Assembly: GCF_030323025.1 (NCBI RefSeq)
Contig: NZ_CP097329.1
Coordinates: forward strand, 3,272,001 to 3,336,000
Direction: 5' to 3'
Length of the DNA: 64,000 bases
DNA from: Pseudanabaena mucicola str. Chao 1806
GTDB lineage: Bacteria; Cyanobacteriota; Cyanobacteriia; Pseudanabaenales; Pseudanabaenaceae
The notes under the pieces were generated by a model that was not told where the DNA came from, ran no database searches, and saw only the letters and a program-made list of their open reading frames with translations. Shown here one piece after another: positions 1,522-44,005 of the stretch. Numbering within the stretch: position 1 is the first letter of the stretch; every line of letters begins with the position of its first letter. A program made the translations under genes and the position numbers.

Positions 1522-1542
1522 CCCCGCACTGAAGTGACGGGG
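1522..1542 (-). repeat. tnpB right-end hairpin (probable omega-RNA 3' part)
   Basis: The sequence CCCCG-CACT-GA-AGTG-A-CGGGG folds into a hairpin with one bulged A, 10 bp past the tnpB stop codon. In characterised TnpB systems the 3' end of the gene and the right end encode the guide (omega) RNA scaffold, with the guide read from the flank. By analogy the guide would come from bases just below about 1518. Confidence 0.6.
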
Positions 1543-1551
1543 ATTCCTGAT

Positions 1552-2727
1552 TCAGCGAGACAACTTGCCAGATAGACTTGCATCTAATTGGTAGAGGTCG
1601 AACTCTCCACAGGCGTGAATTTGGGTATGCCCTACCCTATTTAGACCAATAGCTAAAATATTCAGAGCCGCATTGTGGTCACGGTCTAATACAGTGCCAC
1701 AATGTCCACAGTGATGTGTACGCTGACTCAATGTTTTGACAACTTGCTTACCGCAGTTTGAGCAATTCTGGCTTGTATATTGGGGCGGTACAGCCACAGT
1801 AACCTTGCCAAACACCTTGCCAAAATATTCAACCCAATCTCGAAACATAGACCAGCTTGCATCTGAAATAGACTTAGCCAATTTATGATTTTTGACCATA
1901 TTCCGCACTTGCAAATCTTCATAAGCAATCAGGTCGTTAGACCGAACCACGCACCTTGCGGTCTTAACTGCAAAGTCTTTACGCTGCCTTGATACTTGCA
2001 AATGCTTTCTGGCTAACCGCTTAATTGCTTTCCTACGATTAGCAGATCCCTTTTTACGCTTAGAAACCCTGCGCTGCAATTTTTTGAGTTGACGCTCTGA
2101 CTTTCTAAGATAGCGAGGATTCTCAACTACTTCGCCTTTTGAGTCAGTGTAGAAGTGATTAAGTCCAACATCTAACCCGATAGTAGTTTTTGATGGTTCT
2201 ATTTCTTCACGCCGATCAACATCAACACAGAATTGAGCATAGTAACCATCAGCCCGTCTTACCAGTCTGATTCGTTTTATCTGCTCTATCTGGTAGAAAT
2301 TAAGGTCACGTGAACCAATTAATTTGAGTCTGCCAATCTTAAAGCCATCAGTCAAAGTTAGATGTTTCCGATCTTCACTAAGCTTCCATCCTGAAGTTTT
2401 GTATTCCACAGAATGACCACGCTTTTTGAATCTGGGAAAACCTTTCTTCCCTGATACTTTCTTCTTGCAATTTTCAAAGAACCGATTAATCGCTGACCAT
2501 GCTCTCTCAGCACTGGCTTGCCTTGCCTGTGAGTTTAGTTTTTTTGCAAACTCAAACTCTTTGGCAAGCACAGCGCAGTATTTATTCAGGTCGTACTTAT
2601 CGCTATCCTTTACATCCATCCATAGCCTTAAAGCCTTATTACGCACAAACAAAGCAGTACGAATCGCCTCATCTATGAGGTTGTACTGCTCTGTCTTGCC
2701 TTTAAGTTTTGCTTCAAGTACTAACAT
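1552..2727 (-). CDS. tnpB: TnpB RNA-guided endonuclease
   Basis: A 391-residue TnpB of full family length. The RuvC-like active site looks complete: D186 in GLDVGLNHF, E270 in IAYEDL and D350 in LDRDHNAALN. A four-cysteine zinc ribbon (C322, C325, C340, C343) lies between the last two catalytic residues. The N-terminal helix-turn-helix region and the basic arginine/lysine-rich stretch at about 205-245 are present. TnpB proteins cut DNA guided by an RNA made from the element's right end; this helps the element persist. Translation starts at the ATG at 2725-2727, which gives the usual N-terminus. No frameshift or stop is seen, so the protein may be active. Confidence 0.92.
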   Translation of the reverse strand: MLVLEAKLKGKTEQYNLIDEAIRTALFVRNKALRLWMDVKDSDKYDLNKYCAVLAKEFEFAKKLNSQARQASAERAWSAINRFFENCKKKVSGKKGFPRFKKRGHSVEYKTSGWKLSEDRKHLTLTDGFKIGRLKLIGSRDLNFYQIEQIKRIRLVRRADGYYAQFCVDVDRREEIEPSKTTIGLDVGLNHFYTDSKGEVVENPRYLRKSERQLKKLQRRVSKRKKGSANRRKAIKRLARKHLQVSRQRKDFAVKTARCVVRSNDLIAYEDLQVRNMVKNHKLAKSISDASWSMFRDWVEYFGKVFGKVTVAVPPQYTSQNCSNCGKQVVKTLSQRTHHCGHCGTVLDRDHNAALNILAIGLNRVGHTQIHACGEFDLYQLDASLSGKLSR

Positions 2728-2774
2728 GGATTTAGTAAGTCTTATGCTGTATGTTATAGCATAGATTAATACAA

Positions 2775-2796
2775 AGCCGTCCTAGAAGGACGGGCT
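2775..2796 (-). repeat. tnpB left-end hairpin
   Basis: An imperfect hairpin (AGCCGTCC / GGACGGGCT around a short loop) 48 bp upstream of the tnpB start. It is the usual subterminal structure at the left end of IS200/IS605 elements, where a partner TnpA would bind. Confidence 0.6.
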
Positions 2797-2820
2797 TTTA
2801 AACCCAATTTTTCGATAAAA

Positions 2821-3351
2821 CTAAGAATTTGTTGATGAGATCTTTTGCTGAAGTAAAGTTGTGTTGATTGCGCTGAGATTAATTTGAATTTCGAGGCGTT
2901 GATTTTCATCTCGAAATAGTAGGACTGTGTCGCCGTTAGGTTGAGTGAGGCTCCCAAACTGTGGATCGTCTAGCTTAATCTTTTGGTAGACGATTTTAGG
3001 CAGCGTCACACGAAGCTGGTAACTTCTGCCTGATGAAGGCAATACGTCTAAACATTGATTAAATAGATCGAGTTTGAGATAGCCAACCGAAATATTACGC
3101 TCATCAGGACTACTGGGTTTATACCAATAAAGAGTAATACCTCGTAAGCTAGGGGCTTGAATCGTGAAGGTTTCGTCGAGAGATTGTTTGCTCCAGTCGA
3201 TCGCTTCATAATTGGTACTGTCAGTAATGGGGCGTTGTTGCCAAATAATTTCTTGTCCAGCAAGGGATGCCCACCATTGAGCAATGCGTGCCAGATTTGA
3301 CTCAGCTTCAGGATCGGTGCTACCAAGTTGCCAAATAATGGTTGCTTCCAT
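2821..3351 (-). CDS. Conserved hypothetical protein
   Basis: A 176-residue soluble protein with no signal peptide or transmembrane segment. The N-terminal part is rich in tryptophan (IIWQLGS..., QWWASLAGQ, IIWQQRP), and the rest looks like alternating beta strands with polar loops. I do not recognise a family with a known function. The ATG at 3349-3351 is the natural start, and the stop lies about 20 bp before the tnpB element. It may be co-oriented by chance with tnpB. The base composition matches the neighbours, so there is no sign of recent transfer. Confidence 0.65.
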   Translation of the reverse strand: MEATIIWQLGSTDPEAESNLARIAQWWASLAGQEIIWQQRPITDSTNYEAIDWSKQSLDETFTIQAPSLRGITLYWYKPSSPDERNISVGYLKLDLFNQCLDVLPSSGRSYQLRVTLPKIVYQKIKLDDPQFGSLTQPNGDTVLLFRDENQRLEIQINLSAINTTLLQQKISSTNS

Positions 3352-3462
3352 TAGTTTTTAAGTGTGCTTACTTTTTATTCAAGCAAATAATTTTTGTAGC
3401 TCTTTTGTTTACAAAAGGCTGTATAAAAGGATAGCAGATACGTTTGAGGAGATGTAAGGGCA

Positions 3463-3642
3463 ATGTTTGGAATTGGATGGCCAGAATTAATTGTAATTTC
3501 GCTTGTGGGTGTGGCAATTTTTGGAGCTAAACGTATCCCTGAGATCGGTCGTAGCGTGGGACAATCTCTCCGAGGATTTCAGGATGAGATGAGGGGGCAA
3601 GGTGAAGCAGATCCTGCAAATACATCTGAGAAGAACAATTAG
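3463..3642 (+). CDS. tatA: Sec-independent translocase TatA/Hcf106-type subunit
   Basis: A 59-residue protein with the TatA layout: a short N-terminal membrane helix starting MFGIGWPELIVISLVG, a hinge FGAKRIPEIGRSVG with the conserved phenylalanine-glycine and proline, and an amphipathic helix (GRSVGQSLRGFQDEMR) followed by a short polar tail. TatA forms the pore-like assembly that moves folded twin-arginine substrates across the thylakoid or plasma membrane with TatC. The ATG at 3463 follows a GAGGAGATGTAAGGG purine stretch that can act as ribosome-binding site. No tatC is adjacent, as is usual in cyanobacteria. The tail is shorter than in many TatA proteins. Confidence 0.88.
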   Translation: MFGIGWPELIVISLVGVAIFGAKRIPEIGRSVGQSLRGFQDEMRGQGEADPANTSEKNN

Positions 3643-3697
3643 CAAATAAAGATTTTGAGAGTGTAGCTTTGCCACACTCTCAAAATCTTTATTTGCT
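3641..3697. terminator. Bidirectional terminator, perfect 24-bp inverted repeat
   Basis: Arms at 3641-3664 and 3674-3697 are perfect reverse complements around a 9-nt loop. The structure lies exactly between the convergent tatA and tsaE genes and overlaps the tatA stop codon; its right arm runs into the tsaE stop codon. It can end transcription from both sides, though the flanking T tracts are short. Confidence 0.75.
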
Positions 3698-4266
3698 TAC
3701 AAAAGCACACTAGTATTTGGGAGACTTTTAAGAAGCTCTACATAGGTTCTGCCCTTGGCAATTAGTTGAATAAGTCGATCACTAGGCAAGTCATCGACAA
3801 AATCTTCAGCTAAAGCATCTGTTTGGACTTGATGTTTTTGTTCTTGATCATAGAATGTACTTGCTGGCATTGAGAGATTAATCTTTAGATGTTGTGGAGG
3901 GATAGTGAGTAACTTGCTTGCCCATTCGATCGCTACGACACCGAGAGGGAAATCTTCACCCCGCCAATATTCTTCTAAGTGAAGGCTGGGAACTTGTGAT
4001 GGATCGAGGCGATAGAGATCAATATGATACAGTGGCAAGCGCCCTTCGGTATATTCATCGATGAGGGTAAAGGTGGGGCTAGCGATCGTGGTACTAATAC
4101 CAAGAGCCTGCCCAAAAGCTTGCATGAAAGTAGTTTTACCACTGCCCAGATTTCCTTCTAGCAAGATAATTGTACCTGTGGTCACAAGTTGGGCTAGTTG
4201 GGTGGCGATCGCTTGAGTCGCAGCTAGATTCTTAGCATAAAGGTCAATCTTTAAAGTCTCAGTCAT
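3697..4266 (-). CDS. tsaE: tRNA threonylcarbamoyladenosine biosynthesis ATPase TsaE
   Basis: A 189-residue P-loop protein. Walker A is GNLGSGKTT at about residues 38-46, followed by the TsaE pattern SPTFTLIDEY and the HIDLYRL strand. TsaE is the ATPase that works with TsaB and TsaD to transfer the threonylcarbamoyl group to A37 of ANN-decoding tRNAs. The length is slightly above the usual 150-165 residues because of a C-terminal extension after the core; the extension (from about residue 150) has no recognised motif. The ATG start gives a standard N-terminus. It is convergent with tatA and divergent from moaC, with a 109-bp gap to the moaC start. Confidence 0.9.
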   Translation of the reverse strand: MTETLKIDLYAKNLAATQAIATQLAQLVTTGTIILLEGNLGSGKTTFMQAFGQALGISTTIASPTFTLIDEYTEGRLPLYHIDLYRLDPSQVPSLHLEEYWRGEDFPLGVVAIEWASKLLTIPPQHLKINLSMPASTFYDQEQKHQVQTDALAEDFVDDLPSDRLIQLIAKGRTYVELLKSLPNTSVLL

Positions 4267-4375
4267 ATATTCAGGTAGACTTTTGTACTAGGGAAAGAGT
4301 TTATTGCTATCAGTTAAGCGCAAACTCTATCAATACCTTGTTTTTTATTATTGTGCGAATTGCAGCAAAGCTTTT

Positions 4376-4888
4376 ATGGATACGGATACTCCTCAGTCAC
4401 TGGCTCATCTTGATCAAAGTGGTAATGCTCAAATGGTGGATGTGACGCTCAAGCCATCAACAGTAAGAAGAGCGATCGCCGTATGCGAAATATCCATGAA
4501 AACAACCACCTTGGACGCAATCCAAGCAGGAAACTTACCGAAAGGAGATGTTTTAGGCACGGCAAGATTGGCAGGGATTATGGCAGCAAAACAAACTGCC
4601 AACTTAATCCCAATGTGTCATCCACTAAATTTGACTGGTGTCGATGTCAAAATTATTTTAGATGAAAATATTCCTGGTTATCAGATTGAAGCAGAGGTCA
4701 AGACCAAAGCTGAGACTGGGGTAGAAATGGAGGCATTAACTGCTGTTACCATTGCGGCTCTCACCATTTATGATATGGCTAAATCCCTAGAAAAAACGAT
4801 GATTATTTCTAATGCAAGGTTATTACATAAAAGTGGGGGAAAGTCGGGAGAATTTAATTCACCGAGTGGCGCATTTTGCGATCTTTGA
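4376..4888 (+). CDS. moaC: Cyclic pyranopterin monophosphate synthase MoaC
   Basis: A 170-residue enzyme of molybdenum-cofactor synthesis that converts the MoaA product into cyclic pyranopterin monophosphate. The catalytic residues are in place: H82 in MCHPL, D133 and K136 in [10 protein letters not shown], with the same spacing as H77, D128 and K131 of Escherichia coli MoaC. GGKSGEF near the C-terminus is also typical. The ATG at 4376 is chosen; an upstream in-frame start at 4304 would add 24 residues unlike the family. No other moa genes are adjacent. Confidence 0.93.
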
Positions 4889-4897
4889 AGCAAATTT

Positions 4898-5092
4898 TTA
4901 GGCAGCTTTGTGCCCTGCGTTCGCAATTAGTTCACGGACTTGAGATTCAGGTAATTGAGTCTCGATATTAACTGTTTTAGAAGCAGGATCACCTGTAACT
5001 ATTGCTGATGTATCGGCAAATTGGATCGCTTTGGAAATTGTTTCGATACAACTAGCACAGCCGATTGAGGGAACCAATAACTTTAAAGACAT
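4898..5092 (-). CDS. atx1: Copper chaperone, Atx1-like HMA-domain protein
   Basis: A 64-residue single heavy-metal-associated domain. The metal site is GCASC (C12, C15), and a histidine sits at position 61 (NAGH). The same residues at the same positions (C12, C15, H61) are known from the cyanobacterial Atx1 of Synechocystis, which hands Cu(I) to the CtaA and PacS ATPases for thylakoid plastocyanin and cytochrome oxidase. The ATG at 5090-5092 is preferred; an upstream start would add 11 hydrophobic residues not found in Atx1. No P-type ATPase gene is beside it. It is convergent with moaC, with only 9 bp between the stop codons. Confidence 0.85.
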   Translation of the reverse strand: MSLKLLVPSIGCASCIETISKAIQFADTSAIVTGDPASKTVNIETQLPESQVRELIANAGHKAA

Positions 5093-5361
5093 ATTAAGGA
5101 AGCACTCTAAAGGCAATATAAACATTTGTAGATTATAAAGCTATTAGTAAGCAGGTTTAGCATACATTAGATCTTCATCTTTAAACTACTCTGTTTTAAG
5201 ATGCTAATCCCTCATTGTGGCATGAGTATATTCGGTATAAGAGGATTTAGAAACCTTGTTCACTTGTGACGGGATGTTTCAGTTATGCTCAGACTTTTAA
5301 TTTTCAATGTAAAATTAATGTAACCGCGATATTTGGTATTTAGTATAAGAATTTGGCTATT

Positions 5362-8163
5362 ATGCAAAATATCCTAGATCTTATTCAATGCGGAATTTTT
5401 GTTTTGACCGTTGAGTCAAATCCAGATGTATCAAGTGAAGATGATCTGGAGTTAACACTACGCTTTGAAATTGCCAATCTTGCTTTTGTGCATCTGGTAT
5501 TTGGGGAACGAATGATCGATCAAACTGTTGATATAATTGGATTAACAGTTAATGAATGCTTACCTTTAGAATTTGCTAATTCCTTAGATTCACATATTCG
5601 TCAGTGCTTGCAATCGCAACAAAAGGTTGAGTATGAAGCACATCTTGATCTGATTACTAATCGAGTTTTATTAATTTCGTTATCACTTAAAACTTGCGAT
5701 AGTGATAATCTGCAAAAAATTATCGGTACTTGTCAAAATATGACAAATTTATCGAAATCTAAGGCTCATGTTAGATATGCCAATGATCAAAAATTTGGTC
5801 ATTTAGTTAGCTCTATTTCCGATGCGTTTGTAGTAGTTGATCACGAGGGGATTGTCCGCTATGTTAACCATGCCGCCGAAGAGATGTTTGGATGTAAAGC
5901 AGAAGATATTATTGGAGAGAGTTTTGGTTTACCTATCGTCTCAGGGGAAAGTACAGATATAGACATTCTCAGTCGTGGTAAGACAACCTCGGCAGAAATG
6001 CGAGTATCAGAGACTATTGATGAAGATCGCAGAGTATATGTAGTTGCATCTTTACGTGAAGTTTCTGAACGCAATCGTGTCGAAGAATCGCTGAAATTAC
6101 GCGAACGGGCAATCGCTGCTAGTCCTAATGGAATCGTGATTACTGATGCCACGCAACCAAACAATCCGATGATCTATGTAAATCCTAGCTTTGAGAGAAT
6201 TACAGGTTATAGTGCAGCAGAAGTAATCGGACGTGATTGTAAATTTCTACAAGGTGGGGATCGCAATCAGATTGGGATCTTAGATTTACGCCAAGCGATT
6301 AAGGAACAAAGAGAATGTCACGCAGTATTACTTAACTATCGCAAGGATGGAACGCCATTTTGGAATGATTTATATATCGCACCAGTATTTAACGATCATG
6401 GTGAACTAACTAACTATATTGGTATTCAAATCGACATTACCGAACAAGTCAAATCTACCCAAAGATTATTAGAAAGTGAGGAACGTCTACGCACAGTCCT
6501 AAAATCAATTAAGGAAGGAATTACTTTTAGTGATGACTCAGGCTATTTCTCGATTTTTAATGATGGGATGGAAAATCTCACGGGATATACGATCGCTGAG
6601 GCAAATGCTAGTCATGACTTTACTAATTTTCTATATCCTGATCGGGGTGAGCATGACAAGGCTTTACAACGCTTACAACTGTTGCAAGAAACTGGTCGCA
6701 CAACTACTGTTGAAACTCGGATTTGTCATAAAGATGGCACATTTAAAGATGTTTTAGTTTCCACAAGAATTATGCTCTATAAGGGGAAACGGATGTATTT
6801 GAGTAGTTACTATGATATTACTGAACGGAAGAGGGTTGAGACTCAATTGCGCTATCAAAGCGAAAGAGAATGCTTATTAAATGCAATTTTACTCAAAATT
6901 CAGCGAGAGCTGAACCTTGAACAAGTTTTAGCAATTACAGTTAAAGAAGCTCAAGAACTATTACGCATTGATCGTGTTGCTATCTATCAATTTAATCAAG
7001 ATTGGAGTGGTACATTTGTAGTTGAAGCAGTTAATGATTTATCATTATCTATTCTTGGCAAAACTATAAATGATCCATGCTTCAATCAAGAGAATATTCA
7101 AAAATATTATAAACAACCAATATCAAGTATCAATGATGTTGAGACTGACGAAATCAGCCTATGTCACAAAGAAATTTTACGACAATTTCAAGTCAAGGCT
7201 AATATTGTTGTTGCGATTTCATTTGGAGATACCCTTTGGGGCTTACTAATTGCTCATCAGTGCTTAGAAAAACGTCTATGGGAAGAATTTGAGATTGACT
7301 TACTAAGACAATTAGCGAATCATGTGGCGATCGCGATTCAACAGGTAAAATTATTTGAGCGTGTGCAAGACCTTAATAAAAATCTCGAATTTCAAGTTAC
7401 TGAGCGAACTCAACAACTAGAGCAAAGTCTTAGACAGCTTGAAATAGCTTTACTTAAAGAGAAAGAACTAAATGAACTTAAATCTCAGTTTATTTCTAGA
7501 GCCTCCCATGAGTTCCGAACTCCTTTAGCTACAATTCAAACTGCCAGTGACCTATTACGCAACTATGGACATAAGATGTCCAATGAGAAAAAGCTCGAAA
7601 GAATCGATAAGATTCAACGAGAAGTCAAGGGGATGACTAGCCTTTTAGAAGAAGTACTGGTGATTGGTAAAACTGAATCTGGAAGGTTTGAACTACGTGG
7701 AGAGACGATTAACTTAGAATCTTTTTGTTTAGAGGTTATTGAGCAAGCAAAACTCTTAGGTAATGGTAAGCATCGAGTTATCTTTAAAAATATTAATGCG
7801 CCGACCAACATTGTAATCGATACTAAATTTTTTAAACAGATTATTGCTAATCTGTTGTCCAATGCAATTAAATATTCGCCAAATAGTACGGAGGTTAATT
7901 TTACGATTTCACAAACTAGTGATCTCCAGCCCAGACTACTATTAGAATTTAAAGACTATGGAATAGGTATTCCTGAAATTGATCAAGAAAAGATTTTTGA
8001 GCATTTTTATCGTGCTCACAATGTTGGTATGATCGCAGGGACTGGGTTAGGTATGGCAATTATCAAAAATTCCATTGACATTCTCGGTGGCACAATTCAA
8101 CTTACTAGTGTTGAAAATAAGGGGACAACTGTCCGAGTGAAGTTGCCAATATCTATGGATTAG
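5362..8163 (+). CDS. Histidine kinase with PAS, LOV, PAS and cyanobacteriochrome-like GAF domains
   Basis: A 933-residue cytoplasmic sensor kinase, counted from ATG 5362 (an in-frame TTG lies 9 bp upstream). Domains in order: a PAS at about 149-235; a LOV-type PAS at about 248-360 with GRDCKFLQG, where C293 is the flavin-adduct cysteine, then LLNYRKDGTPFWN and IGIQ with the flavin-binding asparagines and glutamine; a PAS at about 376-483; a GAF at about 503-667 with C573 in DPCF and C601 in LCHKEIL; a coiled coil; HisKA with H716 in SHEFRTP; and HATPase with NLLSNAIKYSPN, DYGIGIP and GTGLGM. The two GAF cysteines are 28 residues apart, as in DXCF cyanobacteriochromes. It probably binds both a flavin and a bilin. 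The response regulator starting 63 bp downstream is the likely target. Confidence 0.88.
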   Translation: MQNILDLIQCGIFVLTVESNPDVSSEDDLELTLRFEIANLAFVHLVFGERMIDQTVDIIGLTVNECLPLEFANSLDSHIRQCLQSQQKVEYEAHLDLITNRVLLISLSLKTCDSDNLQKIIGTCQNMTNLSKSKAHVRYANDQKFGHLVSSISDAFVVVDHEGIVRYVNHAAEEMFGCKAEDIIGESFGLPIVSGESTDIDILSRGKTTSAEMRVSETIDEDRRVYVVASLREVSERNRVEESLKLRERAIAASPNGIVITDATQPNNPMIYVNPSFERITGYSAAEVIGRDCKFLQGGDRNQIGILDLRQAIKEQRECHAVLLNYRKDGTPFWNDLYIAPVFNDHGELTNYIGIQIDITEQVKSTQRLLESEERLRTVLKSIKEGITFSDDSGYFSIFNDGMENLTGYTIAEANASHDFTNFLYPDRGEHDKALQRLQLLQETGRTTTVETRICHKDGTFKDVLVSTRIMLYKGKRMYLSSYYDITERKRVETQLRYQSERECLLNAILLKIQRELNLEQVLAITVKEAQELLRIDRVAIYQFNQDWSGTFVVEAVNDLSLSILGKTINDPCFNQENIQKYYKQPISSINDVETDEISLCHKEILRQFQVKANIVVAISFGDTLWGLLIAHQCLEKRLWEEFEIDLLRQLANHVAIAIQQVKLFERVQDLNKNLEFQVTERTQQLEQSLRQLEIALLKEKELNELKSQFISRASHEFRTPLATIQTASDLLRNYGHKMSNEKKLERIDKIQREVKGMTSLLEEVLVIGKTESGRFELRGETINLESFCLEVIEQAKLLGNGKHRVIFKNINAPTNIVIDTKFFKQIIANLLSNAIKYSPNSTEVNFTISQTSDLQPRLLLEFKDYGIGIPEIDQEKIFEHFYRAHNVGMIAGTGLGMAIIKNSIDILGGTIQLTSVENKGTTVRVKLPISMD

Positions 8164-8225: not shown

Positions 8226-9947
8226 ATGACAACGATTTTAGTCATCGAAGATGTAGAAGCTTTACGCGAAGAGATCATGGAGACGCTTTCCTATGAAGGA
8301 TTTGAGGTATTGGGGGCTGAAAATGGAGTTTTGGGGGTGCAAACTGCTAAAACCTATTTGCCAAATCTAATTATCTGCGATATTGCTATGCCAGAGCTAG
8401 ATGGCTATGGCACTCTGATGGCACTACGACAAGAGCCAAAAACATCCATGATTCCGTTTATCTTTTTGACTGCGATGACAGATAAAGCGGATATGCGCCA
8501 AGCGATGCAGTTGGGGGCAGATGACTACCTTACCAAACCATTTACATCTTCAGAACTACTAGGGGCGATCGCCTCAAGATTACAGAAATACAACTCTGTG
8601 AGGGAGCATTATTACGATGAAATCAAAGCTGTTGGTGCAAGATTTGAGTATTTGTCTCACCATGATGCACTAACACAGCTACCTAATCGGGTTTTGTTTC
8701 ATGAATCTTTAACTCAAGCAGTCCTGCATGCCAAAATCAATAATAAGTCCCTCGCTTTACTCTTCTTAGATATGGATAACTTTAATGTCATTAACAATAC
8801 TCTTGGTAATGATATTGGCGACCAATTGTTCAAAGCGATCGCGGAACGACTGAGGCGCTATACGGCTCCCTGCGATATGGTAGCTCGCATACAGGGCGAT
8901 GAGTTTGCGATGATCATCTCTGATGTATCTGATCCGATGAGCATCAAAATTGAAAGTCAAAAAATTTTAGATTTATTAAGTCGTCCCTATAATCTGTATG
9001 GGCATGAAGTTTTTATTACCAGTAGCATTGGCATTACTATTTTTCCCGATGATCACCAAGAAGCCGATGGACTAATCAAAAATGCGGAACTTGCAATGTA
9101 TTACGCCAAAACCCATGGCAGAAATAGCTACAAGTTATATAGTTCAGAGCTAAATATCCAATCTGCGGAGTATATGGCTTTAGCCAACAGCCTTCATCGG
9201 GCACTTGATCGCAATGAGTTTCGAGTGTTTTATCAACCTCTAGTTGATCTACAGTCAGGACAAATCGTTGGCGCTGAGGCTCTAGTAAGGTGGCAACATC
9301 CAGATCTAGGAATCATAATGCCTAGTAAGTTTATTCACATTGCTGAGCAGACAGGATTGATTCTGCGTTTAAGTGAGTTAATTCTTCGTGAAGTTTGTGA
9401 ACAGATGCGATCATGGAGAGAACTGGGTATCAATTATGGTTTTGTTGCTGTTAACTTATCAGGTCAGCATTTTCGTCCAGATAATAACTTACCCGAAGTC
9501 ATCGGCAAGATTTTGCAAGAAAGTAATACTGAACCGCAATATTTAGAACTAGAGATCTCCGAAAGGATCATCATGCAAAATGCAGAATCTACGATTAGTG
9601 TGTTGTCACAATTGCAAACTATGGGTGTCAAAGTAGCGATCGATGATTTTGGTACTGGCTATTCTTCACTTAGCTATCTCAAACATTTTCCTGTGAATAC
9701 CCTCAAAATTGATCGTTGCTTTATCCAAGATGTCACTAAAGATAGTCACGATGCCACAATTTCTTTAGCAATTATTGATCTTGCCCACAGTTTGTCATTA
9801 CAAGTTAGTGCTAAAGGGGTAGAAACTAGGGAACAAATGCAGTTTTTAAAAGATCATGGTTGCGATCAAATGCAGGGATATTTCTTTAGTCCATCCTTAC
9901 CTGCGGCTGAGTTTGAAAAGATGTTAATTGATGGTAAAACTTTGTAA
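8226..9947 (+). CDS. Response regulator REC-GGDEF-EAL with altered catalytic motifs
   Basis: A 573-residue protein from ATG 8226 (a GTG at 8169 is an alternative start). REC comes first, with phosphoacceptor D52 in CDIAMPELDGYG and a K in YLTKPF. The GGDEF domain follows, with its signature changed to QGDEF (Q223). The EAL domain comes last, with E351 in GAEALVRW, the IDDFGTGYSSLSYL loop and K494 in LKIDR. The glutamate of the usual EGVE motif is a lysine, K530 (SAKGVET), at the exact +36 spacing from K494 that the general-base glutamate has in RocR and BlrP1. Phosphodiesterase activity is therefore doubtful; cyclase activity is uncertain. It may act as a c-di-GMP sensor or regulator. It is co-transcribed with the LOV/GAF kinase. 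Confidence 0.9.
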   Translation: MTTILVIEDVEALREEIMETLSYEGFEVLGAENGVLGVQTAKTYLPNLIICDIAMPELDGYGTLMALRQEPKTSMIPFIFLTAMTDKADMRQAMQLGADDYLTKPFTSSELLGAIASRLQKYNSVREHYYDEIKAVGARFEYLSHHDALTQLPNRVLFHESLTQAVLHAKINNKSLALLFLDMDNFNVINNTLGNDIGDQLFKAIAERLRRYTAPCDMVARIQGDEFAMIISDVSDPMSIKIESQKILDLLSRPYNLYGHEVFITSSIGITIFPDDHQEADGLIKNAELAMYYAKTHGRNSYKLYSSELNIQSAEYMALANSLHRALDRNEFRVFYQPLVDLQSGQIVGAEALVRWQHPDLGIIMPSKFIHIAEQTGLILRLSELILREVCEQMRSWRELGINYGFVAVNLSGQHFRPDNNLPEVIGKILQESNTEPQYLELEISERIIMQNAESTISVLSQLQTMGVKVAIDDFGTGYSSLSYLKHFPVNTLKIDRCFIQDVTKDSHDATISLAIIDLAHSLSLQVSAKGVETREQMQFLKDHGCDQMQGYFFSPSLPAAEFEKMLIDGKTL

Positions 9948-14439: not shown

Positions 14440-15695
14440 CTGAGATCTTGCACCATTCTAAAAAGGGGTTGCAAAAAGACGAGAGATGTGAAAAAAAGGG
14501 CGTAGTACTAATTTAAATAACGATATGGAAAGCATCGTTAAGCACGCCCAAAGGTTAGTTTATAGCCTTCTGAGCTTTATGCCTAGTGTGTATCAAAAAG
14601 CCAGTCTGAATGCGATATTGGGACTATTTCTCGAAGCGCAGGGACATCCTTTACCTCAACATACGCAAGTAAAATCAGCCAGTTCGTTAAGTCGGTTTCA
14701 AAATCACTATAACTGGTCTACGCGGTCAGTGATTCGGATAACCCGTCAGATCATCTTAGAGCAAATCGCTCAGCATCGACCATACAAAGGGAGTCCATTG
14801 AAGATCTTGATTGACTTGACCACATTGACAAAATGCGGCAAGTTTTTGCATCTAAATACCTCGACGGCTGACGGCTCAGCCCCATGGGTAAGGATGCTCA
14901 ACGGTAAGCGAGGACTTCATCTAGTCTTACTTTATCTAGTCTACGGTGAGTGGCGAATACCATGGAGTTTTAGAGTGTGGCGCGGCAAGGGATATGCGAG
15001 TCCATCAGACTTAGCTTGTAAATTGTTGGGAACAGTGCCAAAGCGATTAACCCAAGGCAGGAAAGTAATTGTTCTTGCTGATACTGAGTTTTGCACAGTC
15101 AAGTTTTTAAATACAGTCCGAGCAAAGGCTTGGCGAGTTGTTGTGGGCATACGCTGCAATCGTAAGCTTCAAGATGGGCGTTCGGTCAAACAACTTTATC
15201 GTCATGGCAAACGGGGGCAACAAGTTTTACTCGAAGGGCTAAGTACCACATTTACCATCTCTTGGTTCTGGCTCAAAAGAGCTGATAGCAAACGAGAGTT
15301 ACGCTTTGTGATTTCTTCTCATCCTTATTCGGGTGCTTATCTGGTGATGTTGGGTCGTAAGCGTTGGGCGATTGAGGGATTTTTCAAAACCATTAAACAT
15401 CGCTTTGGTTTACATTGTTTTGGGCAGTCTACAAAACTTGGAGTTTTTCGTTGGCTAATTCTATCTCTGATTGCTTATCTTTTGGCTCACTGGAGTACTC
15501 AATGGTCGCCACCTCCTGTCTTGGACTGGAAGGCTGCCTCTGATTTGACACTTTCTGTTTTATTCCCTTCTGTCCTTTGGTTAAAACTCCTCCGATACAT
15601 CCGAATTAATGCTGATATTGCTGCTCGTTATGGTTTTAAAATTGTTCTCAAACCCATTCCTACTTAAAGCTTTTGGGAATGGTGCAAGATCTCAG
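14440..15695 (+). mobile_element. Complete DDE insertion sequence with 19-bp terminal inverted repeats
   Basis: Perfect 19-bp inverted repeats lie at 14440-14458 (CTGAGATCTTGCACCATTC) and 15677-15695. They enclose a single intact transposase gene. The 4-bp sequence ATAG borders both outer ends and may be the target duplication. The size (1256 bp) and gene architecture fit the IS4/IS701-like group. With intact ends and gene it may still move. Confidence 0.85.
14525..15667 (+). CDS. IS4/IS701-like DDE transposase
   Basis: A 380-residue transposase filling the element. It shows DDE-type segments: LIDLTTLTKCGK (first Asp), VIVLADTEFCTV (second Asp) and RWAIEGFFKTIKHRFGL, which holds the last acidic residue in a YREK-like arrangement. 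The C-terminal tail is hydrophobic and helical. No stop codon or frameshift interrupts it. The start ATG lies 66 bp inside the left inverted repeat. The exact IS family could not be settled by eye. Confidence 0.88.
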   Translation: MESIVKHAQRLVYSLLSFMPSVYQKASLNAILGLFLEAQGHPLPQHTQVKSASSLSRFQNHYNWSTRSVIRITRQIILEQIAQHRPYKGSPLKILIDLTTLTKCGKFLHLNTSTADGSAPWVRMLNGKRGLHLVLLYLVYGEWRIPWSFRVWRGKGYASPSDLACKLLGTVPKRLTQGRKVIVLADTEFCTVKFLNTVRAKAWRVVVGIRCNRKLQDGRSVKQLYRHGKRGQQVLLEGLSTTFTISWFWLKRADSKRELRFVISSHPYSGAYLVMLGRKRWAIEGFFKTIKHRFGLHCFGQSTKLGVFRWLILSLIAYLLAHWSTQWSPPPVLDWKAASDLTLSVLFPSVLWLKLLRYIRINADIAARYGFKIVLKPIPT

Positions 15696-39980: not shown

Positions 39981-40201
39981 GCAAGTATACAAGACCCTCA
40001 CCTCTCGCCCATCTCCCCTTTTGGGATCTGGGAACAAGAAATTAGCCTTAATCCTCTCTTAAGGGGAGAGGAATTGGGGGGTGAGGTCGATATTCGTTCC
40101 ACGTAACATCAGTTACTAATAACTTTGCATAGGCATCTATTTGCTTAAAAATATTTTTAAAACAAACTTTAAACAGAAAATACTATCTTAGTAATATTTT
40201 T

Positions 40202-43200
40202 ATGACTGACCACCTCAATGCTTTAATCATTGACGAATCAGAGGACGATACTCTGTTGTTGTTAGGAGAGCTACGTCTTGGTGGTTTTCAGGTGATTTGG
40301 GAACGAGTAGATACGGAAATGACCCTCAGTACTGCTTTAGAGCGCCAGACATGGGACGTGATTATTTCTGAATATAGTTTGTCAGAATTGGATGCTCTAA
40401 AGGCGATCGCTATTATTCAGCAAAGATGTCTCGACATTCCTTTTATCGTTGTTTCAGGCAGTGTAGGAGAAACTGTGTCAGAGAACTTGCTGCGTCAAGG
40501 AGCAAGTGATTATTTATCTAAGGGGAATTTAGCGCGGTTATCGGCAGTAGTGCGCCGTGAGTTAAAGGAAGCAAATATTCGTTTGGAACGACGTAAAGCT
40601 GATCGAGAACTTAAGCAAACCAAAGAACACCTAAAACTGGTGATCGAAAATTCAGGTATTGGATTATGGGACTGGTGGGTACAAACTGGAACGTTATCCC
40701 TAGATGATCGATGGGTGGAGATGTTGGGATACACGCTTGAAGAATTGCAGCCCATCAGTATCGCAACTTGGCGTAATAACGTGCATCCCGAAGATTTACC
40801 CCAAGTCGAAATAGCTCTAGATCGACATTTTTGCCATGAAATAGAAGCCTATGAAATCGAATTCCGAATGCGCCATAAAATTGGTGGATGGGTTTGGGTC
40901 TTGGCTAAGGGTAAGGTGGTGGAATGGAGTGAAAGCGATCAACCAATTCGGATGATCGGTACACATCTCGACATTACAGGGCGTAAACAGAATATCGAGA
41001 TGTTGTTACAAATCAATGAAACCCTTGAAGAGCGAGTAAGGAACCTTACTGCCGAGTTGAAACAAAGTGAACTGCGCTTGCGGGAAGCTCAACAAATTGC
41101 CCATCTTGGGAGTTGGGAGCTAGATATCCACACTAGAGAAATTACTTGGTCAGCCGAAGTCTTTAGGATTTTTGGCTTAGAGCTGGATTTACCAGAGCCA
41201 AGCTACGAGAATTTTCTCAATTACTTTGTTGGGGATGATCGCGATCGCTTTATCCAATTTATCGATCATGCTATTACCAAAGGTGAAATTGATGAAATCG
41301 ATCTCCAGATTCGTCGTGATGATGGTTCTTTAGCAAATATTTTTGTCAAAATTGATGTCATTAAAAACGATGCAAATCAGATTTGCCGTTTGTTTGGCAT
41401 TGCAATGGATATTAGCGATCGCAATCAAGCTAAAATTCAGCAGCAGCAGTTATTTCAAGAATTATCTGCTTTTAAGCTTGCTCTCGATCAAACAGCGATC
41501 ATTGCTACTACCGATGCTCAAGGCAAAATCACCTATGTCAATGATTATTTCTGTAAAATTTCAGGCTATACCTATGACGAGTTGATCGGTCAAAACCATC
41601 GCATTCTTAAATCTGGCTATCATCCCTTTAGCTTTTTTCAAAGTATGTGGCACACAATTGCTAGTGGAGATGTTTGGCATGGTGAAATATGCAATCTCCA
41701 TAAAAGTGGCAGTCTCTATTGGGTAGACACCACTATAGTTCCCTTTATCAATGCTCAAGGACGACCATTCAAGTATTTGGCAATTCGTTATGATATAACC
41801 GCTAAAAAGTTCACTCAAGTAAGATTGCAGCAAGAAAACAACTTCCGTCAGCAAATTGTTGAAAGTATGACAGAAGGACTATGTGTTTGTCATAAGACTG
41901 AGAAATATCCCTTTCTCCATTTTACTGTCTGGAATCAACGAATGCAGATGATCACGGGCTACACCTTAGAAGAGATTAATCGTTTAGGTTGGGAGCAGAG
42001 TCTGAAACCATTCTCGACGCAAGCATTGTGTAATCAAGAAGATTTTGTCACCATAGATCATAAGCTCTGTAATCAGGAGTGGGAAATCTACCACAAAGAT
42101 GGTCGTAAATTGATGATTGCAATGTCTAAAACGCCCCTTTTAGGAGAAGATGGCCAATCTTACATGTTAGCAATCATTCAAGATATTACTGATCGCAAAC
42201 AGACGGAACTAAGGTTAGAGCAACAGGCGACACAGGAACACTTACTGAGTGCAATTACCCAACGCATTCGTCAATCCCTCGATCTGCAAACTACCTTTGA
42301 AACGGCTGTGCAGGAGGTGAGACAGTTCCTGAGTGCGGATCGAGTAGGTATTTTTAAATTTTATCCTGACTCCAATTTTGATGATGGTGAGTTTGTTGCA
42401 GAAGTTGTTCTACCTGAATTTGACTCCGTGATCGCTACAAAAATCCACGATCATTGCTTTGGTGAAACATACGCGGCTTTCTATGCTCAAGGTAAAATTC
42501 AAGCAGTCAATGATATATACAATGCAGGGTTTCAGGATTGTCATATTCAGGTGTTGGATCAGTTTCAAGTACGCGCTAATCTAGTAGTTCCTCTGCTCAA
42601 TGCCACAGGTTTGTGGGGGTTGTTATGTATCCATCAATGTGCTCAGCCTCGTGTATGGCAAGATGTGGAAATTGATTTAGTTAAACAAATCGCTAGTCAG
42701 TTAGCGATCGCCATTCAACAGGTCAGCCTGTTTGAGCAATTACAACAAGAACTTACTGTCCGCCAGCAAGCAGAAGCTAAGTTAAACGAGATCAATCAAA
42801 AGCTGGCTATTTCTAATGAAGACTTGGTGAAAGCAACTAGACTCAAGGATGATTTTCTAGCCAATATGAGCCATGAACTGAGAACTCCTCTCAATGCCAT
42901 TTTAGGGATGTCCGAGGGACTGCGAGACGGGGTATTTGGTGATGTTAGTGATCGGCAAATGAAGGCTTTGCGAACTATTGAATCAAGTAGTATGCATCTA
43001 TTAGCGCTGATAAATGACATTCTTGATGTCGCCAAAATTGAGTCAGGGAAAGTAACTCTAGAGCTAAATGAAATATCGATTGAGAATCTATGTCAATCGA
43101 GTATGACATTTATTAACCAACAAGCTTTTGCCAAAAATATTCAACTAATTTCTAGGATTACACCACATTTGCCTGACCTGATGTTAGATGAGCGACGAAT

Positions 43201-44005
43201 TAGACAAGTTTTAATTAATCTGCTCAACAATGCGGTCAAATTCACTCCTGAAGGTGGAACTATCACTCTATCTGTGTCCCATCATCTAGAATCCGTTGGT
43301 CTTGAGTCTATGAATTATCTCAGAATTACGGTAATGGATACGGGCATAGGAATTTCTGCCGAGAATATGCCAAAACTCTTTCAACCATTTATCCAAATTG
43401 ATAATGCCTTGAATCGCCAAAATGTAGGTACAGGTCTGGGGCTGGCTCTAGTCAAACAGATTGTGGAATTGCATGGAGGCAAGGTAGGACTTACAAGTGA
43501 ATTAGGGGTTGGAAGTTGCTTTATGATCGATCTTCCGTACCAAGCTTTAGCGAAATATGCCTTAGCAAATCTTCCTTCATCTACTACAAATCCCGAATTT
43601 AGCCTTTCTACATATCATGCAAGTAAAGTTGCTCCGCCCTTGATTTTGATAGCTGATGATAGTGAAGCAAATATCAGTACGCTCGCGGCTTATCTTGAGG
43701 CAAAGGGATATCGATTACTTTTAGCAAAAAATGGACAAGAGGCGATCGCGATCGCGAAGGAGTATTGTCCAGACTTAATTTTGATGGATATTCAAATGCC
43801 TGTGATCGATGGACTAGAAGCAACTAGACAAATTCGGCTTGATCCTAAATTAGTCAATGTACCAATTATTGCGATTACAGCTTTAGCGATGAGAGGAGAT
43901 CGTGAACAATGTCTGTTGGCTGGAGCCAATAAATACATCATGAAACCAGTTAAACTAAAGCAGCTATCTAGTGATATCCGACAGCTTTTACTCAAGCGAA
44001 TTTAG
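40202..44005 (+). CDS. Hybrid histidine kinase REC-4xPAS-GAF(CBCR-like)-HisKA-HATPase-REC
   Basis: A 1267-residue cytoplasmic kinase. The first REC (1-130) has glutamate E57 (IISEYSL) where the phosphoacceptor aspartate should be. Four PAS domains follow at about 142-265, 296-410, 420-545 and 550-680. The GAF domain at about 690-865 has C752 in DHCF and C780 in DCHIQVL, then FQVRANLVVPLL and LWGLLCIHQC, which is the full DXCF cyanobacteriochrome pattern with the canonical 28-residue cysteine spacing. HisKA has H891 (SHELRTP). The ATPase has NLLNNAVKFTPEG and GTGLGL. The C-terminal REC has D1196 (LMDIQMPVIDG). It probably senses light through a bilin. The gene is 205 bp from the IS remnant and 72 bp from the ABC gene. 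Confidence 0.9.
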   Translation: MTDHLNALIIDESEDDTLLLLGELRLGGFQVIWERVDTEMTLSTALERQTWDVIISEYSLSELDALKAIAIIQQRCLDIPFIVVSGSVGETVSENLLRQGASDYLSKGNLARLSAVVRRELKEANIRLERRKADRELKQTKEHLKLVIENSGIGLWDWWVQTGTLSLDDRWVEMLGYTLEELQPISIATWRNNVHPEDLPQVEIALDRHFCHEIEAYEIEFRMRHKIGGWVWVLAKGKVVEWSESDQPIRMIGTHLDITGRKQNIEMLLQINETLEERVRNLTAELKQSELRLREAQQIAHLGSWELDIHTREITWSAEVFRIFGLELDLPEPSYENFLNYFVGDDRDRFIQFIDHAITKGEIDEIDLQIRRDDGSLANIFVKIDVIKNDANQICRLFGIAMDISDRNQAKIQQQQLFQELSAFKLALDQTAIIATTDAQGKITYVNDYFCKISGYTYDELIGQNHRILKSGYHPFSFFQSMWHTIASGDVWHGEICNLHKSGSLYWVDTTIVPFINAQGRPFKYLAIRYDITAKKFTQVRLQQENNFRQQIVESMTEGLCVCHKTEKYPFLHFTVWNQRMQMITGYTLEEINRLGWEQSLKPFSTQALCNQEDFVTIDHKLCNQEWEIYHKDGRKLMIAMSKTPLLGEDGQSYMLAIIQDITDRKQTELRLEQQATQEHLLSAITQRIRQSLDLQTTFETAVQEVRQFLSADRVGIFKFYPDSNFDDGEFVAEVVLPEFDSVIATKIHDHCFGETYAAFYAQGKIQAVNDIYNAGFQDCHIQVLDQFQVRANLVVPLLNATGLWGLLCIHQCAQPRVWQDVEIDLVKQIASQLAIAIQQVSLFEQLQQELTVRQQAEAKLNEINQKLAISNEDLVKATRLKDDFLANMSHELRTPLNAILGMSEGLRDGVFGDVSDRQMKALRTIESSSMHLLALINDILDVAKIESGKVTLELNEISIENLCQSSMTFINQQAFAKNIQLISRITPHLPDLMLDERRIRQVLINLLNNAVKFTPEGGTITLSVSHHLESVGLESMNYLRITVMDTGIGISAENMPKLFQPFIQIDNALNRQNVGTGLGLALVKQIVELHGGKVGLTSELGVGSCFMIDLPYQALAKYALANLPSSTTNPEFSLSTYHASKVAPPLILIADDSEANISTLAAYLEAKGYRLLLAKNGQEAIAIAKEYCPDLILMDIQMPVIDGLEATRQIRLDPKLVNVPIIAITALAMRGDREQCLLAGANKYIMKPVKLKQLSSDIRQLLLKRI

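Follow-up and report, generated by a model that had tools for sequence, protein, structure and literature searches.

Architecture of the locus

We analysed a 64,000-nucleotide stretch of the Pseudanabaena mucicola str. Chao 1806 genome (contig NZ_CP097329.1, positions 3,272,001 to 3,336,000; referred to here as the window), in which an open reading frame (ORF) on the plus strand, at positions 5362-8163, encodes a 933-residue histidine kinase with a LOV domain and a GAF domain of the DXCF cyanobacteriochrome type, as judged from its translation and from Pfam matches. The ORF runs without interruption from the ATG at 5362 to the stop codon ending at 8163, and a TTG at 5353 offers an alternative start. 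The host genome consists of one contig of 4.53 Mb; its nearest named relative is the metagenome-assembled genome Pseudanabaena sp. M53BS1SP1A06MG, in which the best segment matching the kinase is 100% identical.

Pfam matches and an AlphaFold2 model of the whole protein gave the domain order PAS-like, PAS, LOV, PAS, GAF, HisKA and HATPase. The N-terminal PAS-like alpha/beta domain (residues 11-126, positions 5392-5739) was delimited from the secondary structure of the model only, a Pfam search of the protein having returned no best-scoring stretch for these residues. It is followed by a PAS domain (residues 131-233, positions 5752-6060), the LOV domain (residues 248-361, positions 6103-6444, with a PAS_9 match and a gapless alignment to a solved LOV protein), another PAS domain (residues 372-490, positions 6475-6831), both PAS domains being supported by Pfam and the model, and the GAF domain (residues 506-668, positions 6877-7365, defined by PDB alignments, the model and Foldseek). 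The kinase core is made up of HisKA (positions 7480-7683), with the phosphoacceptor His716 (positions 7507-7509) in the motif ASHEFRTPLA, and HATPase_c (positions 7819-8151); the His box of the former and the N and G boxes of the latter are intact, as in a sensor histidine kinase.

The full-length model, built from 17 sequences, had a mean predicted local distance difference test score (pLDDT) of 77 and a predicted template-modelling score (pTM) of 0.32. It resolved units at residues ∼11-126 (PAS-like), 131-233 (PAS), 250-358 (LOV), 386-485 (PAS) and ∼500-661 (GAF), with a long helix running from the GAF domain into the kinase core. A Foldseek search with this model matched multi-domain kinases, including the Brucella LOV histidine kinase (LOV-HK), all at a TM-score of at most 0.22 to the query, and was uninformative.

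The LOV domain

The sequence-only reading of this locus had assigned the LOV domain from the motif GRDCKFLQG, with Cys293, and from the asparagine and glutamine positions of a flavin site, and these features were recovered when the domain was aligned with solved LOV proteins. Residues 244-373 aligned without gaps to PDB chain 7r5n (E-value 8e-43); many other LOV structures also matched, and LOV proteins head the PDB matches listed. Cys293 (positions 6238-6240), the expected flavin-adduct cysteine, lies in the motif typical of LOV proteins, and the flavin-site letters Asn325 (in NYRKDG), Asn335 (in FWN) and Gln356 (in GIQ) are in register with the corresponding N, N and Q of the solved chains and are largely kept across the family sequences. 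It had further been claimed that some LOV proteins have DC instead of NC before the conserved FLQ, and indeed DCRFLQ replaces NCRFLQ in 7r5n, 7a6p and 8a3u, three of the four chains whose alignments were shown; we take these chains to be photoactive. Since solved LOV chains also have DC, Asp292 is no objection to the LOV identity; within the family, the position holds N in some members and D in others. Among the other matches, 3sw1 is named as PpSB1-LOV of P. putida (PMC4335406).

The GAF domain

The GAF domain carries a DPCF motif that provides Cys573 (positions 7078-7080), the second cysteine of the DXCF type, and the sequence LCHKEIL that provides Cys601 (positions 7162-7164), the canonical bilin-attachment cysteine in a CH motif. 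The translation confirmed that the two cysteines are exactly 28 residues apart, as had been noted before. A chance origin of this spacing was ruled out, the pattern D.CF-28-C[HY] having appeared in none of 20,000 shuffles of the kinase protein.

In PDB comparisons, bilin-binding GAF domains were the best matches, with PPHK (6oap) at an E-value of 2e-36 and TePixJ (3vv4) at 2e-26; a cyanobacteriochrome-derived fluorescent protein, NpR6012g4 (6bhn) and AnPixJ (3w2z) were also near the top. When residues 562-646 were used alone, TePixJ chains ranked first. The alignment with TePixJ, which the sequence-only reading had proposed as a check, extends over 80 residues without a gap; the DPCF motifs of the two proteins coincide in it, as do their CH cysteines. 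The GAF domain was also modelled by itself (32 sequences, pLDDT 88, pTM 0.86), and the model was used in a Foldseek search, in which the best 50 of 413 matches at E≤0.001 were all bilin-binding GAF domains, namely cyanobacteriochromes, engineered derivatives and phytochromes. The PDB matches, the TePixJ alignment and these structural neighbours led us to reject an ordinary GAF domain of the non-bilin kind. The domain thus combines homology to bilin-binding GAF domains, a canonical cysteine and a second cysteine within Asp-Xaa-Cys-Phe, the motif by which the DXCF type is defined (PMC11284453). Since the same genome has two genes of the ferredoxin-bilin-reductase family, a supply of bilin is expected. 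At a separate locus (L288:3674-6373; G000:C1, about 404-407 kb), a bilin reductase gene stands directly before an ORF whose GAF domain has a canonical-type cysteine (ECL) and no DXCF cysteine.

The adjacent regulator

A gene for a 573-residue REC-GGDEF-EAL protein (positions 8226-9947, plus strand) starts 62 bases past the stop codon of the kinase. Its Pfam domains, its motifs and the presence of the same neighbour in relatives mark it as the likely cognate regulator. Among 25 named relatives (L038-L062), 24 have a homologue of this gene downstream on the same strand with no more than ∼0.4 kb between the ORFs, one of them (L049) with only the REC part on the contig. The sole exception, L058, has ∼1.1 kb of sequence left at this point and also does not have the LOV cysteine.

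The regulator has the REC aspartate in CDIAMP and the motifs EALVRW and DDFGTGYSS of an EAL phosphodiesterase, and at the place of the GG[D/E]EF motif that marks a diguanylate cyclase it reads QGDEF. This form is found in the window and in all 19 readable rows among L038-L057; farther relatives read QGDQF, RGDEF, RGDVF or GEEVF, with GGDEF in L059. Every one of the 27 rows readable for the EAL motif has it intact. Because the GGDEF site is degenerate and the EAL motif intact, the motifs predict a phosphodiesterase of cyclic di-GMP (c-di-GMP) rather than a cyclase.

Two transposase-like ORFs were noted by eye near the locus, at 1552-2727 (minus strand) and 14525-15667 (plus strand); they resemble a TnpB-like RNA-guided protein and an insertion sequence (IS) transposase.

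Conservation within the family

Matches to the kinase at E≤1e-120 were obtained in 34 of 38 genomes of the host's family, four of them partial (G001 in two pieces, G002-G004 over residues 365-931). These genomes, together with a kinase from another family (L118), rule out an architecture unique to the strain. The family sequences read number 30, counting that of the window, and 25 of them retain all three cysteines. The LOV cysteine is kept in 29, each of the GAF cysteines in 27 and both GAF cysteines in 26; the 25 named relatives considered above overlap with these 30 sequences and are often the same genomes, such that the counts are not independent. The canonical cysteine is lost in L023, the DXCF cysteine in L034, the LOV cysteine in L037 and both GAF cysteines in L025 and L026. 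In the last two, which are close relatives and perhaps represent one event, loss of one GAF cysteine goes with loss of the other. That no sequence among the 30 has lost both sensors lends no weight to the idea that either one suffices, the losses being so few that no double loss would be expected by chance.

L025 and L026 come from the same genomes as L053 and L055 (P. biceps PCC 7429 and Pseudanabaena 'Roaring Creek'); their GAF cysteines have been replaced by Asn and Ser, and the LOV site is intact. Judged by these residues, this is a natural single-sensor variant. In L059 and L061 the entire LOV domain is absent. Since both keep the GAF pair (DHCF and CH) and the partner gene, LOV behaves, as far as the sequences tell, as a module that a PAS-PAS-GAF kinase has either gained or lost.

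LOV and DXCF pairings outside the family

In order to see how common the pairing is, 388 genomes of the class were searched with one LOV DNA motif at no mismatches, a search that misses variant LOV domains. The motif was found in 129 genomes. Outside the family there were 131 hits (at least 24 of them in families f10 and f19) in 130 distinct ORFs, of which 119 had at least 100 residues and 118 were LOV-homologous at the motif. Seven of these 118 ORFs also encode a GAF domain with the DXCF pair (L175, L189, L312, L313, L314, L315 and L334), or 7 of 96 when a set of 24 hits from f10 and f19 is left aside. Among the 118, one other (L176) has a GAF domain with the canonical-type cysteine only; in a further 20 the GAF matches are distant and the pair is missing. 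An eighth LOV and DXCF kinase (L118/L254; 814 residues, LOV-PAS-GAF, from another family) came from a separate draw of genomes and is not part of the 7/118. The combination had been called rare; this stands outside the family and fails within Pseudanabaena, where the pairing is the norm. We conclude that LOV and DXCF are genuinely paired and that the pairing, although uncommon, is conserved. In family f19 (L378-L388), LOV proteins of ∼1370 residues have two tandem GAF domains behind LOV in which the cysteine pair is absent.

Outside the family, LOV precedes GAF either directly or with a PAS domain in between (LOV-PAS-GAF), except in L334, where GAF comes first. The L334 protein (family f7, 1526-5885, minus strand) is a CBS-GAF(DXCF)-PAS-LOV-HisKA_2 kinase whose gene is followed directly, with a slight overlap of the ORFs, by a REC-GGDEF-EAL gene having EALIRW and an unrecognisable GGDEF motif. 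This is apparently an independent pairing of LOV and DXCF with c-di-GMP, and such a differently ordered kinase with the same type of neighbour suggests that the solution arose more than once.

In a tree of the GAF domains (88 domains reduced to 67 rows, near-duplicate sequences of the genus having been dropped beforehand), those linked to LOV were scattered. A single fusion ancestor for all LOV and DXCF proteins was rejected, as at least six changes are forced by well-supported branches; the 20 labelled rows behind this figure include LOV-linked GAF domains without the pair, short loci may hide a LOV domain and many inner branches are weak. Because the LOV-linked domains form no single group, the tree suggests repeated assembly of LOV with GAF. 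A preference of LOV for DXCF-type partners was not shown. DXCF occurs in seven of the eight LOV-linked proteins of the survey whose GAF domain has the canonical-type cysteine (L176 being the exception), and it also dominates the canonical-cysteine GAF domains of the host, where by eye it was seen in five of the six found (the window kinase, L002, L287, L290 and L293, not L288). A search of the open-licence literature, in the parts of the papers available, found no description of a kinase combining LOV with a cyanobacteriochrome; subscription papers lay outside it, among them a survey of flavin and bilin photoreceptors from 2013 to which PMC4844311 refers.

Other photosensory genes of the host

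The host has one other protein with the LOV motif (L292), a kinase of 1176 residues with the order LOV-GAF-HisKA-HATPase-REC-Hpt, whose GAF domain does not have the cysteine pair. Its gene is followed by one for a REC-GGDEF protein with an intact GGEEF site, the pair spanning L292:4023-8625 (G000:C1, about 938.5-943.1 kb). Such a pair was present in 17 of 18 Pseudanabaena loci, that is, the host's own and those of 17 genomes of the genus with a second LOV hit among those listed. The departures are L302, which ends at a contig edge, and L310, which has the pair with a split or shorter kinase ORF. The two LOV-motif kinases of the host therefore adjoin c-di-GMP regulators whose motifs predict opposite activities.

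Two further proteins with DXCF GAF domains were noted in the genome. L002, within the window at 40133-44005 (plus strand, 1290 residues), is a second DXCF-type kinase with DHCF and CH 28 apart; it has REC, PAS repeats, GAF, HisKA, HATPase and REC and no LOV cysteine motif. L290 (L290:3969-10298) encodes a multi-sensor protein of 2110 residues with one DXCF GAF domain (DFCF, CH) and two GAF domains without the pair.

Proposed mechanism and alternatives

We propose that the window encodes a sensor histidine kinase with flavin and bilin light sensors in series that would control a c-di-GMP phosphodiesterase through the adjacent regulator, a reading to which sequence and model lead us to assign a probability of about 0.78. 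The prediction of two light receptors on one kinase core, made when the sequence was first inspected, is upheld by the LOV and GAF features and by the intact H, N and G boxes. The LOV domain would bind flavin mononucleotide (FMN), and blue light would join Cys293 to the flavin in an adduct that reverts thermally in darkness, as is known for the LOV family. The GAF domain would bind a phycocyanobilin-derived bilin at Cys601, to which Cys573 would add reversibly; its dark state would absorb violet or blue light and its photoproduct light of longer wavelength, typically green, by which it would be reset. Both sensor states may bias the HisKA/HATPase core through helical linkers, and the kinase would phosphorylate the REC-GGDEF-EAL regulator, as the conserved gene pair suggests. 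The regulator, by its motifs, would then hydrolyse rather than make c-di-GMP, the expected outcome being control of c-di-GMP that is set by blue light and reversed by green.

Several observations weigh against this proposal. The pTM of the full-length model, 0.32, is too low to trace the path between the domains. One of the two sensor sites is broken in 5 of the 30 family sequences (L023, L025, L026, L034 and L037), and therefore neither site is indispensable. The GAF domain departs from consensus close to the pocket, reading DVETDEIS and VVAI at places where the majority of rows have DIYxAxx and VVPI, respectively. Seven of the eight LOV and DXCF genes outside the family have no REC-GGDEF-EAL gene in the 4 to 16 kb of DNA read; the c-di-GMP link is not general for such kinases, yet it is found in two differently built cases. 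Finally, degeneracy of a GGDEF site is no proof that cyclase activity is lost, and some relatives differ, as in the GGDEF of L059.

The pocket-proximal departures would also fit a protein in which only LOV senses light, the GAF domain being a linker or a binder of another ligand with a cyanobacteriochrome fold and its cysteines remnants. The two genomes that have lost both GAF cysteines and retained LOV and the partner (L025 and L026) point the same way. However, the cysteine pair persists in 26 of 30 sequences, among them the distant L037, whose LOV cysteine is gone, as well as in L059 and L061, which have no LOV at all, and the match to TePixJ is gapless; we consider this explanation quite unlikely. 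Another idea, that LOV mainly senses redox state or a ligand and that its response to light is incidental, draws on the membership of LOV folds in the PAS superfamily and on the loss of the adduct cysteine in one family member (L037). Retention of that cysteine in 29 of 30 sequences, with the flavin-site letters largely kept, makes it very unlikely.

The colours assigned to the GAF domain follow by analogy from known DXCF members, which bind phycoviolobilin or phycocyanobilin and photoconvert by way of a reversible thioether at C10, and other DXCF photocycles may apply. The domain may be a cyanobacteriochrome that is not blue/green, with unisomerised phycocyanobilin or, for example, a blue/orange photocycle, since DXCF members with unisomerised phycocyanobilin exist (NpF4973 at 435/600 nm as compared with TePixJ at 430/530 nm; PMC4469895). 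The CH and DPCF motifs match those of TePixJ, which speaks against it and is not decisive; we regard it as possible but doubtful. As for the output, the regulator could be a cyclase or bifunctional, in which case light would raise c-di-GMP. The intact GGDEF motif of L059 is in keeping with this, but the window and all 19 readable L038-L057 rows have QGDEF, and the EAL motif is complete in each of the 27 rows that can be read, which makes it unlikely.

The two LOV kinases of the host might form the arms of one circuit. We offer tentatively, as a possibility we hold to be on the doubtful side, that Pseudanabaena exerts two-armed light control of c-di-GMP, with a LOV kinase and a cyclase (REC-GGEEF) opposed to the LOV and DXCF kinase and a phosphodiesterase (REC-QGDEF-EAL). 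Flavin would drive both arms in blue light, and only the degrading arm would have a green-resettable bilin switch, so that the messenger would be set by the ratio of blue to green and not just by how intense the blue light is. By combining a flavin switch that reverts thermally with a bilin switch that light reverses, a single kinase would be able to compare blue dose with spectral colour.

If both sites work, the kinase would be a natural one-protein integrator of flavin and bilin photocycles, kept in most of the genus, apparently assembled more than once elsewhere; its partner is likely known, and its output could be read. It would permit a direct test of how serial light sensors gate one kinase and might serve as an optogenetic part. 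It would also link colour with c-di-GMP, and through this messenger possibly with the motility or aggregation of filamentous cyanobacteria.

Comparison with known systems

The GAF domain shares with TePixJ and other DXCF cyanobacteriochromes the DPCF motif and the canonical CH cysteine, 28 apart in a gapless alignment. TePixJ is, however, a chemotaxis-type receptor (its PDB name is methyl-accepting chemotaxis protein) in which we know of no LOV domain, whereas here the GAF domain stands behind LOV and PAS domains in a histidine kinase. The LOV domain resembles the Pseudomonas short LOV proteins of the PpSB1 type and the Brucella LOV-HK (6ph4) in sequence, in the flavin-site letters and, for some, in having DC for NC; in the Brucella protein LOV likewise feeds a kinase core. 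Judged by their names and lengths, the chains of these proteins contain no bilin-binding GAF domain.

Another related system is formed by Anabaena CdgK, which we take to be all2875, and its regulator CdgS. CdgK is a kinase with a GAF domain and a PAS domain reported to bind FMN, encoded in an operon with the c-di-GMP regulator CdgS (all2874), and in this system c-di-GMP controls cell size (PMC9927289). It offers a precedent for a kinase of this make-up that acts on a c-di-GMP regulator. Its likeness to the window kinase is that of a multi-PAS and GAF kinase paired with a c-di-GMP response regulator. It differs in being a membrane-anchored hybrid with REC and Hpt domains, in having a GAF domain for which the available part of the source reports no bilin, and in that CdgS is a cyclase (PMC9927289); Pfam found no C-terminal REC or Hpt domain of this kind in the 933-residue kinase. 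The closer counterpart of CdgK/CdgS in the host genome is the L292 LOV kinase with its REC-GGEEF regulator.

PPHK of Leptolyngbya JSC-1 (6oap), a dual-sensor histidine kinase, is the nearest solved protein to the GAF domain by sequence and by fold and likewise places two sensors on one kinase. Its GAF domain, in contrast, reads DQYF and so has no DXCF cysteine, and its other input is, by its name, phosphorylation and not light (PMC11480761). SL2 of Synechococcus elongatus (LOV-GGDEF-EAL) likewise brings blue light to bear on an EAL phosphodiesterase, but holds sensor and enzyme within one protein, and the available parts of the sources mention no bilin domain (PMC8846402, PMC5812497).

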